Positions 27,322 to 33,329 of a stretch of DNA of 64,000 bases are shown here, in pieces. Origin of the DNA: Bacteroidota bacterium. Lineage in GTDB: Bacteria; Bacteroidota; Bacteroidia; Flavobacteriales_D; Crocinitomicaceae. Position numbers and translations under genes: made by a program. The notes under the pieces were generated by a model. That model saw only the letters and a list, made by a program, of their open reading frames with translations, did not search any database and was not told the origin of the DNA. Position 1 is the first letter of the stretch. The number at the start of each line of letters is the position of its first letter. The stretch lies in NCBI GenBank assembly GCA_016192075.1, contig JACPUU010000021.1, positions 124,001 to 188,000 of the forward strand. The letters run 5' to 3'.

Positions 27322-28425
27322 ATGAAGGAACGGGATATAAGCGTTGACATTTTGCGCGGAATAGCCATTTTTGCAATGATAGCCGCCAATATGGCTCCCT
27401 ACAATTTTCTGGAACCTCATTCTTTTTCATTCCGCATTTACGGCAGCATGGCCGCACCCATGTTTATTTTTCTGGCCGGCATGATGGTGAGTTATACCGC
27501 GACCATCAAAGCACACAAACTGAATTATTACCTCAAAAGAGCCCTTGCAACATTGGCTGTTGCGATGCTCATTGATACGTTTATCTGGGATATTTTACCC
27601 TTTGTTACCTATGATGTGCTCTATGTTATTGCACCTGCCATGCCGCTGATTTTTTTCTTCATTAAACTTCCGCGCATTGCGCAGCTCATTCTTATTGCCG
27701 TTATTTTTGGTGTAACACCGGTTTTACAATATTACCTGGGTTATGCAGATTCGCCGGCAGAAGTGTCTCTTTCTGAAGAAAATTACCTGCAAAAAGCCAG
27801 CGAAATTAGTGTTTGGAGACAGTTTCTCCACGAGGGGTGGTTCCCGTTTTTTCCCTGGATCGGGGTTGCACTTTCAGGGGCCTTTGTGGGCTCATTTAAA
27901 TTCAAAACAGTCCCCGAAATTTTTAATAAAAATCTACTGATTGCCGGTTTGGCACTGCTTATTTCAGGCATTGGCATGTGGTTGTTTTTTATGCCGGAAG
28001 TAAGCACCAACGAAGGATTTGATGGTTCACCGCAATCACCGCTTTTTTATAAATTTTTGATTACCCGTGACGGATATTCTGAATTGTTTTATCCGCCAAC
28101 ACTGTTTTACCTGTTCACATTCCTTGGGTTTATTCTGATACTCATTCCGCTAACAGCCAAATTCCAAAAAAACAGGGTGTTGAATTTGCTTACCGTTTAT
28201 GGCCGGTCGTCACTGCTGGTATATATACTGCACACCCTTTTTATTGCGCTGATTTTTGCCAATGAAAATTCTGTGTTTGGAAACATAGGGCAGCATTCTT
28301 TTGGCATTTTTATGGGATTATACCTGTTGCATGCACTGGTTTTGTGGTTGATTTGCTTTGGAGTTCAGAAACTGAAGCAGGGGAAACAGTTTCCGTTTTT
28401 GATTAATTTCATTTTAGGCGGATAG
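27322..28425 (+). CDS. HGSNAT/DUF1624-type membrane acyltransferase
   Basis: A 367-residue polytopic protein with about ten membrane helices. It begins MKERDISVDILRGIAIFAMI, the 'R-x-x-x-x-D-x-x-R-G' signature of the heparan-alpha-glucosaminide acetyltransferase (DUF1624) and acyltransferase-3 superfamily, followed by FRIYGSMAAPMFIFLAGMM. Such enzymes move acyl groups across the membrane onto sugars; the substrate here is unknown. Start at 27322 because the signature begins there; the frame is open 45 nt upstream but adds an unlikely tail. Divergent from the sensor phosphatase with 64 nt between. Confidence 0.8.
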   Translation: MKERDISVDILRGIAIFAMIAANMAPYNFLEPHSFSFRIYGSMAAPMFIFLAGMMVSYTATIKAHKLNYYLKRALATLAVAMLIDTFIWDILPFVTYDVLYVIAPAMPLIFFFIKLPRIAQLILIAVIFGVTPVLQYYLGYADSPAEVSLSEENYLQKASEISVWRQFLHEGWFPFFPWIGVALSGAFVGSFKFKTVPEIFNKNLLIAGLALLISGIGMWLFFMPEVSTNEGFDGSPQSPLFYKFLITRDGYSELFYPPTLFYLFTFLGFILILIPLTAKFQKNRVLNLLTVYGRSSLLVYILHTLFIALIFANENSVFGNIGQHSFGIFMGLYLLHALVLWLICFGVQKLKQGKQFPFLINFILGG

Positions 28426-28498
28426 CCGGACCGGTATCCTTCACCAGACAAGCGGCGTGGGCGCTTTCAGCCGCTGATGCCTGAACATTAACTGCTTC

Positions 28499-28528
28499 TT
28501 TCAGGACCCATAATTATTCTTAAATTTG
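28499..28528 (+). promoter_or_regulatory. leuS promoter
   Basis: TTTC (28499-28502), 18 nt, then TAAATTTG (28521-28528), a full match to the -7 element. Predicted leader about 40 nt. Confidence 0.5.
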
Positions 28529-28573
28529 CCTACCCTGCTGCAATGCAGCGTTCACGCAAACACAACAAATTAC

Positions 28574-31500
28574 ATGGAATACGATTTCAGAGAAATTGAA
28601 AAAAAATGGCGCAAAAACTGGGCTGAAAATAAAACATTCAGCGCCTCAGACGATACCTCAAAACCAAAATACTATGTGCTGGACATGTTTCCTTACCCAT
28701 CTGGTGCAGGACTTCACGTAGGGCATCCGCTGGGCTACATTGCCTCTGATATTTATGCCCGCTATAAACGGTTACAAGGCTATAATGTGTTACACCCCAT
28801 GGGGTATGATTCGTTTGGTCTGCCCGCTGAACAATACGCCATTCAAACCGGCCAGCACCCTGATAAAACAACAAAAGAAAACATTGCTCGCTACCGCGAC
28901 CAGTTAGATAAAATTGGTTTCTCCTTTGACTGGGATCGTGAAGTAAGAACGTCTGACCCGAATTATTACAAATGGACACAGTGGATTTTTATTCAGCTTT
29001 TTAACAGCTGGTATAACCCGCGCACCAACAAAGCTGAGAAAATTGAAACGCTCATTGCCATTTTTGAAAAAGAAGGTTTTAGCGGAAACGGGCACGACAT
29101 TTTAACCGGGGGCGTTGAAAAAAACCTGGCACCTTTTACCGCAGCAGAATGGAAAAATTTTGATGAACAACAGCAGCAGGAAACATTGATGAACTTCCGC
29201 CTGACCTATCTCGGAGAAGCTTATGTTAACTGGTGCCCCGCATTGGGAACCGTTTTGGCAAATGATGAGGTAAAAGATGGTTTCAGTGAACGCGGCGGCC
29301 ACCCGGTTGAACGTAAATTAATGCGCCAGTGGAGCATGCGTATTACCGCTTATGCGCAGCGATTATTAGATGGTTTAGATACCATTGACTGGAGTGAGAG
29401 TATCAAAGAAGCACAGCGAAACTGGATTGGCAGAAGTGAGGGAGCTTTGCTTAGATTTCAGGTTATGCCCCACCCCGACCTATCCCCAGCCCTTTCCAAA
29501 GGAAAGGGGGCCAATACGCAGGGCTCCTTGCGGAGTGAAGAAGAGCAGGGCTCCTTGCGGAGTGAAAAAGGAAAGGGGGCCAATGCGCAGGGCTCCTTGC
29601 GGAGTGAAGAAGAACAAGATACCAATGCGCAAGGCTCCTTGCAGAGTGGAAAAGGACAGGGGACCAATGCGCAGGACTCCTTGCGGAGTTCAGACAACAA
29701 GCCGGGGTATTTGACAGGGAAGGCTGAAGTATCAAAATTGAATTTGATCCGTGCCAAAGAAATGCGTGATAATCCAACACCCGCAGAAAGTAAACTTTGG
29801 AGTGAATTAAAAACAAAACAACTGGGCCTAAAAATAAGACAACAGCACCTGATTGATATTTACATTGTCGATTTTGTCTGTCTCTCAAAACGCCTGGTAA
29901 TTGAAGTAGATGGTGATATTCATGATCATCAGGTAGACGAAGATTTGGTTCGTACACAAAACCTGATTACGAAAGGATTTAAAGTAATCCGGTTCAAAAA
30001 TGATGAAGTACTCAATAACATTGGTGCTGTTATAAAACAAATCAAACAAGAACTAAACACGTTGCCCGATTTTGCGGACGATTCCGATGAAGCCACCGAA
30101 GGTGTGCTTGAAGAAAGTACCGTCCTTCCCCCTGGGAAGGAACGAGGATGGGAAATAGAAGTTTTCACCACCCGCCCCGACACCATTTTTGGTGTTTCAT
30201 TTGTAACGCTGGCACCAGAGCATGAATTGGTTTCGCAGATCACCACACCTGCGCAAAAAGCTGAAGTAGATGCATACGTAACCAAATCCAAAAACCGCAG
30301 TGAGCGGGAGCGGATGGCCGATGTCAATACAATCAGCGGAGTCTTTACCGGATCGTACGTGCTGCATCCGTTTACGGGAAAACAAATTCCAATCTGGGTT
30401 GGTGATTATGTGCTGGTGGGATACGGAACCGGTGCTGTAATGGCTGTTCCGGCACATGATGAGCGTGATTATAAATTTGCAAAACACTTTAATCTTCCAA
30501 TAACCTTTGTTATTGAGCCACCAAAGAATTCTGTCGAAGCGAAAGCGAGTCCAGAAACGACTCCCCTTTCCTTCGGAGAGGGGCAGGGGGAGAGGTACGG
30601 GGAGGGGGAACAAAAACCCTGGGCTGAAAAAGAAGGAAAATTAATCAACTCCGATTTCCTGAATGGATTGGATGTAAAAGCCGCCATCAAGAAAGCCATT
30701 GCAGAAATTGATGCACGCGGACTTGGAAAAAAACAAATCAATTACCGTTTGCGTGATGCGGTCTTTGGCAGACAACGCTATTGGGGTGAGCCCATTCCGG
30801 TTTATTACCAGAACGGAACGCCTTACGTACTGAATGAAAACGAACTTCCACTGACGTTGCCAGAAGTTGATAAATACCTGCCAACTGAAGACGGTGAGCC
30901 ACCGCTGGCGCGCGCAAATAATTGGAAATACTATCCCACCGCTGGCTCCTCCCAAGGGGAGGAGGACAAGGCCGGCTATAATTACGAACATTCCACCATG
31001 CCGGGCTGGGCAGGTTCATCGTGGTATTTTTTACGGTACATGGATCCGCACAATACCGGTGAATTTGTATCCAAAGAAAAAGCTGCTTACTGGAACCAGG
31101 TTGATCTTTACATTGGTGGATCAGAACATGCAACAGGACACTTATTATACTCCCGTTTCTGGAATAAATTTTTGTTTGACTTAGGCTATATCACCTTTGA
31201 TGAACCTTTTAAAAAGTTGATCAATCAGGGGATGATTTTGGGGAGGAGTAGTTTGCTAACCGCGATGCCGATAAACTTCGAAGTTGGGAAAAAAGATGAG
31301 CTTACAGAAGAAGATTCTAATCTTCAAATGGAGTTGATAAAACAACGTCATTTTGTTTCAAAAAATTTGGCAAAAAAAATTGTTTCTAACGATTTGAATC
31401 AGGAAGAAGAATCTCATGTCGCCGCATGTTTGAAACCTATATTCGATGAAATCAAGAATCGGTTCGCAAAGTATGATCTTAATGAAGATTCTTTAAAACT

Positions 31501-32344
31501 TAATACTATTGTCTTTACAAGGCGTGTAGATATAAAATACATTGATAATGATATTTTAAATATTAAGGACGCGAGTAAGGATCCACTTTTTAGTTTTTTG
31601 AATAAATCTCAAATTGTACCTGAATTGGATGGAACTTATATTTGTGGGAATGAGGTAGAAAAAATGTCCAAAACATATTACAACGTCCAAACACCTGATG
31701 AACTGGTAGAAAAATTTGGAGCTGATACGCTGCGTTTGTATGAGATGTTTTTAGGTCCGCTAGAACAAGCCAAACCATGGGACACACAAGGTATCAACGG
31801 CGTTCACAGCTTTTTGAGAAGATTCTGGCGTTTGTTTCACAACAGCGAAAATGAGTTCAGCGTTTCTGACGGTGAGGCCTCTAAAGAGTCGTTAAAAACT
31901 CTGCATAAAACCATCAAAAAAATTCAGGACGACCTGGAACGTTTTTCATTCAACACCGGCGTTTCTAATTTTATGATTGCCACCAATGAGTTTACCGATC
32001 AAAAGTGCAACAACCGTGCTGTGCTGCGTGAAATGGTAATTTTGCTGTCATCGTATGCGCCGCATATTGCTGAAGAGTTGTGGGAAAAATTAGGTGAAAA
32101 GGGCTCTGTGACCTACGCCCCATTCCCTAAATTCAATCCGGATTATTTAGTAGAAAGTTCATTTGAATACCCGGTTTCGTTCAATGGCAAAATGCGTTTC
32201 AAATTAGAATTGCCGCTGACTTTAAATGCCACTGACATTGAAAAAGAAGTCATGGCGCAGGAAAATACAGCTAAATACCTGGAGGGAAAAGCGCCTAAAA
32301 AAGTAATTGTGGTGCCGGGCAAAATTGTGAACATTGTCATGTAG
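28574..32344 (+). CDS. leuS: Leucyl-tRNA synthetase carrying a DUF559 domain and other in-frame insertions
   Basis: A 1256-residue LeuRS; Bacteroidota homologues usually have about 920-950. Core motifs are intact: HVGH (48-51) in PYPSGAGLHVGHPLG, editing-domain FTTRPDTIFG and GYGTGAVMAVPAHDERDY with the catalytic Asp, QINYRLRDAVFGRQRYWGEP, TMPGWAGSSWYFLRYMDP and a KMSKS loop written KMSKT (1030-1034). Extra material: residues 298-526 hold a repeat tract and a DUF559 nuclease domain; a short palindromic insert follows at about 30525-30614 and another at 30946-30964. Residues about 885-1010 also diverge from the usual pattern. I chose the ATG at 28574 because it begins the conserved MEYDFREIEKKW. 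The enzyme is essential, so the insertions must be tolerated. Confidence 0.95.
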   Translation: MEYDFREIEKKWRKNWAENKTFSASDDTSKPKYYVLDMFPYPSGAGLHVGHPLGYIASDIYARYKRLQGYNVLHPMGYDSFGLPAEQYAIQTGQHPDKTTKENIARYRDQLDKIGFSFDWDREVRTSDPNYYKWTQWIFIQLFNSWYNPRTNKAEKIETLIAIFEKEGFSGNGHDILTGGVEKNLAPFTAAEWKNFDEQQQQETLMNFRLTYLGEAYVNWCPALGTVLANDEVKDGFSERGGHPVERKLMRQWSMRITAYAQRLLDGLDTIDWSESIKEAQRNWIGRSEGALLRFQVMPHPDLSPALSKGKGANTQGSLRSEEEQGSLRSEKGKGANAQGSLRSEEEQDTNAQGSLQSGKGQGTNAQDSLRSSDNKPGYLTGKAEVSKLNLIRAKEMRDNPTPAESKLWSELKTKQLGLKIRQQHLIDIYIVDFVCLSKRLVIEVDGDIHDHQVDEDLVRTQNLITKGFKVIRFKNDEVLNNIGAVIKQIKQELNTLPDFADDSDEATEGVLEESTVLPPGKERGWEIEVFTTRPDTIFGVSFVTLAPEHELVSQITTPAQKAEVDAYVTKSKNRSERERMADVNTISGVFTGSYVLHPFTGKQIPIWVGDYVLVGYGTGAVMAVPAHDERDYKFAKHFNLPITFVIEPPKNSVEAKASPETTPLSFGEGQGERYGEGEQKPWAEKEGKLINSDFLNGLDVKAAIKKAIAEIDARGLGKKQINYRLRDAVFGRQRYWGEPIPVYYQNGTPYVLNENELPLTLPEVDKYLPTEDGEPPLARANNWKYYPTAGSSQGEEDKAGYNYEHSTMPGWAGSSWYFLRYMDPHNTGEFVSKEKAAYWNQVDLYIGGSEHATGHLLYSRFWNKFLFDLGYITFDEPFKKLINQGMILGRSSLLTAMPINFEVGKKDELTEEDSNLQMELIKQRHFVSKNLAKKIVSNDLNQEEESHVAACLKPIFDEIKNRFAKYDLNEDSLKLNTIVFTRRVDIKYIDNDILNIKDASKDPLFSFLNKSQIVPELDGTYICGNEVEKMSKTYYNVQTPDELVEKFGADTLRLYEMFLGPLEQAKPWDTQGINGVHSFLRRFWRLFHNSENEFSVSDGEASKESLKTLHKTIKKIQDDLERFSFNTGVSNFMIATNEFTDQKCNNRAVLREMVILLSSYAPHIAEELWEKLGEKGSVTYAPFPKFNPDYLVESSFEYPVSFNGKMRFKLELPLTLNATDIEKEVMAQENTAKYLEGKAPKKVIVVPGKIVNIVM
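29465..30151 (+). mobile_element. In-frame DUF559 nuclease insertion within leuS
   Basis: 229 codons inserted between LLRFQV and EVFTTRPDT, which are adjacent in normal LeuRS. The left edge bears a palindrome at 29490-29508 (CCCTTTCC/GGAAAGGG) and the right edge one at 30124-30140 (CCTTCCC/GGGAAGG), in a C-rich/G-rich inverted arrangement. Inside, after a repeat tract, residues about 389-493 are a DUF559 domain of the Vsr-like PD-(D/E)XK fold: AKEMRDNPTPAESKLW, IYIVDFVCLSKRLVIEVDGD with the likely catalytic Asp and Glu, and FKVIRFKNDEVLNN. Length 687 bp keeps the frame. It has no intein splice residues. Confidence 0.8.
29519..29690 (+). repeat. Palindromic tandem repeat cassette in the leuS insertion
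   Basis: Five copies of CAGGGCTCCTTGCGGAGT or close variants start at 29519, 29546, 29588, 29630 and 29672; the last four are exactly 42 bp apart. Each contains the palindrome CTCCTTGCGGAG. They encode QGSLRSEEE-like units, which look unstructured. Confidence 0.85.
30525..30614 (+). repeat. Second palindromic insert in leuS
   Basis: A G-rich, low-complexity segment encoding a linker of Glu, Gly, Ser and Pro, absent from typical LeuRS between the editing domain and KEGKLINSDFLNG. It contains a palindrome at about 30563-30583 (CCCCTTTCC, TTC loop, GGAGAGGGG) followed by GCAGGGGGAGAGG, resembling the elements at the DUF559 edges. Confidence 0.6.
30946..30964 (+). repeat. Third palindromic insert in leuS
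   Basis: CTCCTCCC, AA, GGGGAGGAG: a 19-bp palindrome inside a short coding insert (AGSSQGEEDKAG) just before the conserved YEHSTMPGWAGSS block. Confidence 0.6.
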
Positions 32345-32358
32345 TCCGGTAGAAAAAA

Positions 32359-32670
32359 CTACCGCACCAAAAAATACAATGCAAAACTAAGTGCTTCGCA
32401 AACCGCCACGCAAATGACAATTACAATGAGGTTAATTTTTCCGGTGCAGGTTGTTTTGAAATTTTCAGCATCGCGGAAAAAATAACGGCTTCGGGTTGAC
32501 GTACGGTTGCTGGTATCGGTGTGCTGATATTTTTCGTACCCCAATGATCCGGCCCTGAAAAGGCGGGTTTTGATCAAAAATTTGATGACAAAAACGGGGA
32601 GCAGCGAAACAATATTCAATGCCAGAATTAACCCTATCATCAATGCCAGTACACTAAGATTAACGATCAT
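32359..32670 (-). CDS. Small two-helix membrane protein of unknown function
   Basis: A 103-residue protein with two membrane helices (about residues 5-30 and 80-102) separated by a basic loop of about 50 residues (KTRLFRAGSLGYEKYQHTD, RSRYFFRDAEN). No family recognised. It converges with leuS (14 nt between stops) and lies 125 nt downstream of the DWDYWE-repeat gene on the same strand. Confidence 0.6.
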   Translation of the reverse strand: MIVNLSVLALMIGLILALNIVSLLPVFVIKFLIKTRLFRAGSLGYEKYQHTDTSNRTSTRSRYFFRDAENFKTTCTGKINLIVIVICVAVCEALSFALYFLVR

Positions 32671-32795: not shown

Positions 32796-33329
32796 TTAAT
32801 TTGTTACTCCCTGAATGTAAATGCTGCTGGTAAAAACAGGAATAAAAAGCACCGCCATTTTTGCGGCATCATTCAGTCCTGAGAGGTTACCGGAAAACTC
32901 CCAGTAATCCCAGTCTTCTGATGTATACGTGCGAATAGTAGCGGTAGCATCGCCTGAAATTTCCCAATAATCCCAGTCTTCTGAGGTATAGGTGCGTGCA
33001 TTGAGTGAAACACCGCTGCCGCGGATCTCCCAATAATCCCAATCTTCAGCGGTATAGGTGCGCAGTGTCACTGCACCGCCGTTTACCTCCCAGTAGTCCC
33101 AGTCTTCTGACGTGTAGGTTCGTATAGTGCCAGTCAGTCCGCCCGATATTTCCCAATAATCCCAATCTTCTGAGGTATAGGTTCTGAATGTACCTGACTC
33201 CCCGGCCACATCATATTCCCAATAATCCCAGTCTTCTGACGTATAGGTGCGCATTTTGCCAGACTGGCCGAACACAACGACTGCGGCAAACAGCAAAAAA
33301 ACGGCAAGTGTATTTTGAAGCATGCGCAT
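32796..33329 (-). CDS. Secreted protein made of six RTYTSEDWDYWE repeats
   Basis: A 177-residue protein with a signal peptide (about residues 1-21, ending VVVFGQ) followed by six near-identical units of 20-23 residues. Each starts RTYT(S/A)EDWDYWE and continues with a variable Gly-rich half (ISGGLTGTI, VNGGAVTL). The tail NDAAKMAVLFIPVFTSSIYIQG is hydrophobic. The strict spacing of aromatic and acidic residues suggests a short beta-solenoid or a ligand-binding repeat. I recognise no family. It starts 16 nt after the stop of the haem/copper T9SS gene, so the two are co-transcribed. Confidence 0.8.
   Translation of the reverse strand: MRMLQNTLAVFLLFAAVVVFGQSGKMRTYTSEDWDYWEYDVAGESGTFRTYTSEDWDYWEISGGLTGTIRTYTSEDWDYWEVNGGAVTLRTYTAEDWDYWEIRGSGVSLNARTYTSEDWDYWEISGDATATIRTYTSEDWDYWEFSGNLSGLNDAAKMAVLFIPVFTSSIYIQGVTN
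32898..33252 (-). repeat. Six tandem ~60-66 bp coding repeats
   Basis: The DNA for each DWDYWE unit has a highly similar core of about 36 bp separated by variable segments. Synonymous changes are scattered among the copies (AATAATCCCA against AGTAATCCCA), so the duplication is old enough to have been filtered by selection on the protein. Confidence 0.8.

Follow-up and report, generated by a model that had tools for sequence, protein, structure and literature searches.

The window analyzed here, a 64,000-nucleotide (nt) stretch of the genome of a Bacteroidota bacterium, contains leuS, the gene for leucyl-tRNA synthetase (LeuRS; 1256 aa), which occupies positions 28574 to 32344 on the plus strand as one open frame of 1256 codons and is uninterrupted through a large insert. 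The gene is the genome's sole copy: a search of the 4.65-Mb genome with the LeuRS model found one LeuRS gene, and the further matches, in frames of 892, 730, and 1182 aa, fell below the cut-off and are inferred to be ValRS, MetRS, and IleRS. The insert is a whole in-frame element at 29465 to 30153 (+), located in a loop of the editing domain (here site A) and adding a net ~224 codons, as judged from spacer lengths and from an alignment of 32 LeuRS sequences that shows the insert join. More specifically, the spacer that runs from NWIGRS to the (E)VFTTRPDT strand measures 246 aa in the window LeuRS versus 21 to 38 aa (21 to 25 aa in 25/29) in the LeuRS of 29 relatives, drawn from 39 genomes searched, and none of these 29 carries DUF559 in this spacer (0/29). 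Likewise, the LeuRS of PDB 1h3n, which we take to be that of T. thermophilus, aligns up to residue 297 and resumes at residue 524, i.e., it lacks the insert.

The left end of the element (29468 to 29511, +) consists of a C-rich arm (29468 to 29489) followed by the hairpin CCCTTTCCAAAGGAAAGGG (29490 to 29508). Next to it lies a repeat tract (29521 to 29694, +), which encodes an AQGSLRSE-like peptide predicted to be disordered (model pLDDT ~30) and comprises four imperfect 66-nt copies at spacings of 69, 42, and 42 nt; when this tract was searched against its own genome, the next match reached only E = 0.275. Peptide repeats reminiscent of this tract were seen ahead of DUF559 at two other loci, L037 and L180 (GCPQDGVVNTPLE and NPESGEVSEGRRGQ, respectively). 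The DUF559 nuclease domain itself (29750 to 30055, +; LeuRS residues 393 to 494) is supported by Pfam, by conserved residues, and by fold; in the Pfam scan it is flanked by LeuRS domains (E = 1e-32), and its match to PF04480 (112.7 bits against a curated cut-off of 20.6) satisfies family membership. The right end (30123 to 30153, +) carries the hairpin TCCTTCCCCCTGGGAAGGA (30123 to 30141) and a G-rich arm. Farther downstream, leuS contains two more palindromic features in frame: a second relic without DUF559 at site C (30564 to 30611, +; hairpin at 30564 to 30582), recognized by sequence and by a pattern match at G000:C19:154564-154582, and a solo hairpin, CTCCTCCCAAGGGGAGGAG, at LeuRS site B (30946 to 30964, +), where ten other fetched LeuRS genes have DUF559. 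A 177-aa frame of TYTSEDWDYWE repeats adjoins leuS on the opposite strand (32796 to 33329, -).

A Pfam scan of LeuRS revealed no intein or Hint domain, and an Rfam search of 28400 to 32500 gave no match up to E = 1, i.e., no recognized intron. The intein reading was rejected for lack of a splicing domain in that scan, and the group I/II intron reading for lack of an Rfam match in a continuous frame. Production of a separate DUF559 protein from an internal start was considered as well; by eye, the fused copies share no Met just before the domain. A further alternative is that the insert is removed before the enzyme functions, by an unknown type of splicing, by proteolysis in the linkers, or by translational bypass. 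Its location in an essential enzyme speaks for removal, and flexible linkers on both sides would allow cleavage. Against it stand the absence of any Hint/intein domain or Rfam intron, linker ends that by eye appear unconserved, and the two LeuRS sites being loops variable in length and sequence; we consider removal very unlikely.

These data bear on a sequence-only reading of the locus, which had proposed an in-frame DUF559 insert in the LeuRS editing domain, a repeat tract ahead of the domain, bounding palindromes, an apparently intact nuclease with its likely catalytic residues, and no intein splicing residues. These claims held: the first by open frame, Pfam, and spacer comparison; the second as the four imperfect 66-nt copies; the third in that the palindromes are real and specific, with a hairpin at each end; the fourth in that the residues are invariant in the copies compared, activity being inferred; and the last in the sense that Pfam finds no intein or Hint domain.

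Hairpins and inverted ends of the element

Only three pyrimidine-arm hairpins (arm of ≥7, ≥60% C) occur in the 64-kb window, and all of them lie inside leuS: two mark the ends of the insert, and the third is at 30946 to 30964. When the hairpin pattern was searched in the whole genome, it matched four places, three of which are in leuS (the left end of the insert, 30564 to 30582, and 30946 to 30964), whereas a reversed control pattern gave no match. A hairpin with a G-rich arm resembling the window's left arm was observed between predicted frames at G000:C2:34500.

End statistics cover 68 internal insertions. Hairpins with an arm of ≥7 were present in 52/68 left and 50/68 right flanks compared with 21/242 host control segments. 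The left end matched the reverse-complemented right end with a mean score of 20.4, versus 9.9 for shuffles and 13.3 for each of two further controls (right ends of other elements and direct orientation). All 50 of their own shuffles were beaten by 49/68 elements, and 19/68 failed to do so. The ends of the window copy match only weakly, with a score of 11, or of 9 (shuffles averaging 9.6) when a shorter (180-nt) flank is used. Terminal inverted repeats are supported across elements (49/68), and not in the window copy at the shorter flank length; we read its poor end match as a sign of age, which would argue against very recent arrival. A typical end consists of a C-rich arm and then CCCCTCTCC-AAA-GGAGAGGGG. 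Loops of filled and empty alleles are too diverged to define any target-site duplication. The idea that DUF559 has a fixed frame relative to the hairpins was dropped, as all three hairpin frames are read (by eye).

Free-standing DUF559 genes show hairpins as well, with 13/17 free copies having one on at least one side (by eye). Tandem pairs of free-standing DUF559 genes were observed at L196 (2344 to 2733 and 2905 to 3294) and L194, with 96% and ~88% DNA identity, respectively, and hairpins of the same kind on both sides.

The DUF559 domain has a conserved, predicted Vsr-like nuclease fold

In an AlphaFold model of LeuRS residues 219 to 639, the nuclease block reached a pLDDT of ~90 to 97 and the linkers ~30; the pTM of this model was 0.39, leaving the placement of the nuclease on the enzyme unresolved. 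The model thus predicts that the insert comprises a folded nuclease held by flexible linkers. DUF559 modeled alone (pLDDT 87.9) was compared by Foldseek with known structures and matched PDB 3hrl, an endonuclease-like DUF559 relative (E = 3.6e-7), and 3r3p, the homing endonuclease I-Bth0305I (E = 1.8e-5), with 1vsr as a weak match (E = 0.058). Similarly, a sequence profile search returned 3hrl (E = 9.3e-35) and 3r3p (E = 6.5e-6). Nine residues, E405, W409, Q424, D433, E444, D446, H450, D457, and R460, are invariant in 77/77 fused and 17/17 free copies. A Vsr-like nuclease fold with conserved residues is supported by model, Foldseek, and invariant residues, and we infer from sequence and model, without cutting data, that the insert encodes an intact DUF559 nuclease of the Vsr/EDxHD type. 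The copies compared were chosen among good DUF559 matches, which favors intact ones; DUF559 copies with stops or cut short also occur.

The DUF559 domain is under purifying selection. Of 21 related pairs, 10 had a DUF559 dS of <2; in these 10, dN/dS was 0.038 to 0.109 for DUF559 and 0.09 to 0.55 for the linkers. These pairs share members and hence are not independent, and pairs with saturated dS were excluded. In one pair (L129/L165), the linkers are constrained about as much as the nuclease.

DUF559 insertions occur in many host families

The genome of the window contains three DUF559 domains, one fused and two free. DUF559 was found in 79/200 genomes of a family sample, in 58/299 of an order sample (E of 1e-20), in 113/295 of a class sample (E of 1e-24), and in 114/296 of a phylum sample (E of 1e-26), the last with long frames outside the class too. 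DUF559 hits were also obtained on plasmids. Of 150 matches from the class sample (a subset of all matches there), 71 lay in frames of ≥350 aa, and the frames of 74 were ≤200 aa. Sixty-three of the 71 long frames were internal, with ≥30 codons of frame on each side of DUF559; the 63 internal insertions comprise 62 class loci and the window. The other eight were not clean internal insertions, seven of them (L133, L141, L145, L147, L164, L169, and L189) being terminal or cut and the eighth being L140, described below. Regions were fetched for 80 loci (the 71 long frames and nine free copies), and additionally for ten and for 40 more.

Nineteen host families were named by model, five of them below the cut-off. 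Above the curated-model cut-off were LeuRS, MetH, IleRS, Acs, RecJ, RecG, MutS, TsaD, TsaB, IcmF, and HisF, together with HsdR, HemF, and PaaZ; below it were a RecB/AddA-like helicase, an RluA-family protein, a CaiB-like protein, threonylcarbamoyl-AMP synthase, and a SpoIIE-type phosphatase. Host names without curated-model support were assigned by eye, and one locus (L284) gave no family. An acetyl-CoA synthetase with DUF559 from the Bacteroidetes MAG ZH-Jul18-109 (L073) is a named example. In HisF and HemF, DUF559 is N-terminal, i.e., these are fusions and not internal insertions. Three genomes (L295, L296, and L297) have DUF559 at the N terminus of an oxygen-dependent coproporphyrinogen oxidase, a name given by NCBIfam for L295 only. 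HsdR-like type I restriction genes are recurrent hosts inside and outside the class (L127, L279, L280, L282, L285, and others), L127 being named HsdR by NCBIfam and the rest by eye.

At one LeuRS site-A locus (L140, G577), a stop codon interrupts the right linker and LeuRS resumes in the same frame; a pseudogene, read-through, and a sequence error are each possible.

The insert could in principle be an artifact of assembly or annotation, a concern raised in the sequence-only reading. Most searched genomes are drafts, and the stop in the LeuRS of L140 would fit such an account. Against it stand an open host frame, selection, and recurrence in many genomes. Because the insertion type recurs in this way, the single-contig genome G512 included, an assembly error is very unlikely, and the artifact explanation as a whole is all but excluded.

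Two LeuRS loops are recurrent insertion sites

Excluding the window, LeuRS insertions in the 80 regions first named cluster in two loops, with 16 at site A (including L140) and 10 at site B; both loops are variable in length and sequence. Pyrimidine-arm hairpins follow the same places: in 57 LeuRS genes (28 with and 29 without DUF559), 45 were at site A, 15 at site B, and 13 elsewhere in 154,590 bp, versus none in 251,822 bp of DNA neighboring LeuRS genes. As the loci were picked for DUF559 or LeuRS, these counts give hairpin location and not frequency, and hairpins at site B may be undercounted, this site being unplaced in many LeuRS genes.

Hairpins without DUF559 occupy the same loops at site A (L013, L017, and L123) and at site B (the window and L186). 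These solo hairpins favor an alternative in which the palindromes are the mobile units, moved by something else in the manner of Rickettsia palindromic elements (RPEs), with DUF559 a passenger or captured between two of them; in Rickettsia, genes receive RPEs as in-frame insertions (PMC10969869). In contrast, a mere passenger would not need nine residues invariant in 77/77 copies or purifying selection, and the near confinement of the hairpin pattern to leuS in its own genome (3/4 places) indicates that it does not spread freely there as a repeat. We therefore hold this alternative to be unlikely.

Mapping the site-A label on the LeuRS tree takes 7 changes, of which 5 or more are forced. The window LeuRS is sister to an empty LeuRS of its own family with 99% support, and the window DUF559 is closest to site-A elements from other families. 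A single origin of all LeuRS site-A elements was not rejected by the AU test (P = 0.217), and independent origins at site A are accordingly not claimed. Host and element distances correlate (Mantel r of 0.655 at site A and 0.719 at site B). Because a single origin is unrejected and these distances correlate, part of the pattern is explained by vertical inheritance followed by loss; this route and transfer have probably both contributed.

Near-identical copies and alternating alleles

In one genome (G388), two SpoIIE-type genes (identified by eye) carry DUF559 copies that are 96% identical in DNA, and on the right side their host proteins share only 31.5% identity over 184 aa. Identity between the copies drops just past the right hairpin and G-rich arm; for one copy, a contig end cuts off the left junction. 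Unrelated hosts also share DUF559 copies with 76 to 81% DNA identity, namely MetH/LeuRS (L124/L308), Acs/RecJ (L114/L161), and RluA-type/CaiB-type (L138/L167); for the MetH and LeuRS copies, which come from one genus, the identity is 80.7% over 212 nt.

At site 2 of MetH, in one genus, the element is present in 9/36 genomes; two of the 36 could not be read as empty (G690, cut at a contig end, and G675, without a MetH match). One MetH allele (L212, G680) is an in-frame remnant in which DUF559 is internally deleted and both hairpin ends are left, and another (L222, G677) is an empty allele with an apparent part of the C-rich arm; these two may represent stages of decay. On a MetH host tree of 17 rows, 6 changes are needed, 5 of them forced by well-supported branches. 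The junction was found in 17 of 33 loci (30 plus L126, L128, and L139), and the 16 others were dropped. Filled, empty, and remnant MetH alleles thus alternate within one genus. For the cutting of empty alleles and copying in of the element, the second-gene copy and the alternating alleles provide indirect support only, and these steps are inferred without cutting data.

These observations weigh on the possibility that the insert is a domain acquired for the benefit of the host, for example, as a DNA/RNA-binding arm or a nuclease arm linked to defense or stress, and inherited vertically. Purifying selection and partly tree-like inheritance are in keeping with a host benefit, as is the resemblance of several hosts to restriction enzymes (HsdR by model). 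The nineteen host families by model, the empty alleles in relatives, the alternation of filled, empty, and remnant alleles in one genus, and the 96%-identical domain in two distant genes all speak against it, and we judge it highly improbable.

DISCUSSION

We propose that the leuS insert is a copy of a mobile nuclease element with hairpin-bearing inverted ends, which resides in frame and apparently without splicing inside host proteins. We consider this likely (probability of roughly 0.73), with movement and retention being inferred. The element would be ~0.4 to 0.7 kb long, with a DUF559 nuclease of the Vsr/EDxHD fold as its sole recognized product and inverted repeats as its ends, both of which contain an internal hairpin. 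It would reside in frame and stop-free within loops of conserved host proteins, and in consequence the nuclease would be translated as a domain on disordered linkers inside the host enzyme, where it probably remains, unspliced. Our data show that the element lies in frame, that its active-site-type residues are conserved and the domain is under purifying selection, that its hairpin ends are inverted, and that its sites recur. Essential hosts would protect the element, because its frame-breaking loss would be lethal and only clean in-frame loss tolerated.

Movement would begin with the nuclease breaking DNA at an unoccupied target, which could be a solo hairpin copy or the host allele without the element; break repair would then copy the element in, and later in-frame internal deletion would leave solo hairpins and short scars. 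Allele alternation and near-identical copies in distant host genes are shown. That DUF559 drives the movement, what kind of target is used, and that the domain is retained in the mature protein are inferences, made without data on movement, cutting, or protein product. As the DNA-binding region known from EDxHD enzymes is absent, targeting might, speculatively, come from the hairpins, the host protein, or a partner.

Several known systems resemble parts of this element. RPEs, reportedly described by Ogata and co-workers in 2000 and 2002, likewise place palindromic DNA in frame in unrelated genes and keep the frame open, and the insertions described here meet that RPE-type definition (palindromic, in frame, in unrelated genes). 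RPEs differ in being ~150 bp long (PMC10969869) and in a different phylum, whereas here the hairpin ends are inverted and a conserved nuclease is encoded; RPEs are not known to carry a nuclease. The solo hairpins seen here are possibly derivatives of the full element. The nearest relative in fold and sequence with a known mobile role is the EDxHD (Vsr-like) homing endonuclease I-Bth0305I, described as an enzyme of a group I intron family with a long, multidomain DNA-binding structure (PMC3943268), and a DUF559 gene has been assigned to EDxHD (PMC9403480). Unlike that enzyme, the window insert has only the catalytic domain, in frame in a protein and without an intron; a long DNA-binding region beside the catalytic domain is absent, the insert consisting of DUF559 and low-confidence linkers. 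Inteins with a homing endonuclease are similar in being in-frame nucleases of patchy distribution in conserved proteins, but their splicing domain was not found here, and the sites here are variable loops; inteins lie mostly at active-site motifs. Free-standing DUF559 proteins (NGO0050, PDB 3hrl; Caulobacter VsrA) have the same domain but are separate small genes; VsrA contains DUF559 and is reported to be required for a DNA-damage response in cells without ScmA (PMC12907096). REP/RAYT systems, like the present element, link short hairpins to a nuclease gene. The RAYT nuclease belongs to the HUH enzymes, and most REPs lie outside genes. In contrast, the nuclease here is Vsr-like, and the hairpins are mostly intragenic in the window genome. 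By analogy, then, the element is comparable to an intein without splicing, or to an RPE that brings its own nuclease, and is not a proven homing endonuclease.

The sequence-only reading had gone further than the locus itself. Its suggestion that the nuclease stays in the mature enzyme is supported by inference from open frame, selection, and the missing splicing domain, and was not measured. Its view of a non-splicing analogue of an intein in an essential gene is also supported, except that the case is not special to leuS and homing is not shown. Its remark on DUF559 frames near such palindromes agrees with the hairpins beside 13/17 free copies (by eye, as above). It would have been refuted by a lack of empty sites in relatives together with absence of the domain from other genes and freely varying catalytic residues: all 29 relatives' LeuRS examined are empty at the site, DUF559 occurs in frame in many other genes, and the residues show no variation in the copies compared. 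The observation is confirmed, and the earlier interpretation is supported.

We found no description of DUF559 elements inside proteins in the open-access literature searched (titles and abstracts, with most subscription journals and bioRxiv outside the search). A bolder reading, toward which the balance tips only slightly, is that these are phylum-wide, autonomous selfish elements living as permanent, unspliced domains in essential enzymes. Their hairpin-ended DUF559 nucleases would spread by cutting unoccupied host loops or solo hairpins, the expression and indispensability of the host gene would guard them against loss, and the in-frame hairpin scars left behind would reshape DNA-repair proteins, methionine synthase, and aminoacyl-tRNA synthetases.

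It is generally accepted that selfish nucleases inhabit essential genes by way of inteins and self-splicing introns, with splicing hiding the cost. Here, the same niche is seemingly filled without splicing, in loops that can hold a tethered domain with little damage. If this is true, the element would represent a mobile element of a new type and would account for large insertions in conserved enzymes that have lacked an explanation. It would also suggest a testable way in which selfish DNA contributes to protein evolution, show naturally which loops of LeuRS, IleRS, MetH, MutS, RecG, and others tolerate insertions, and supply a concrete, testable role for DUF559, a family whose function has seen little testing.
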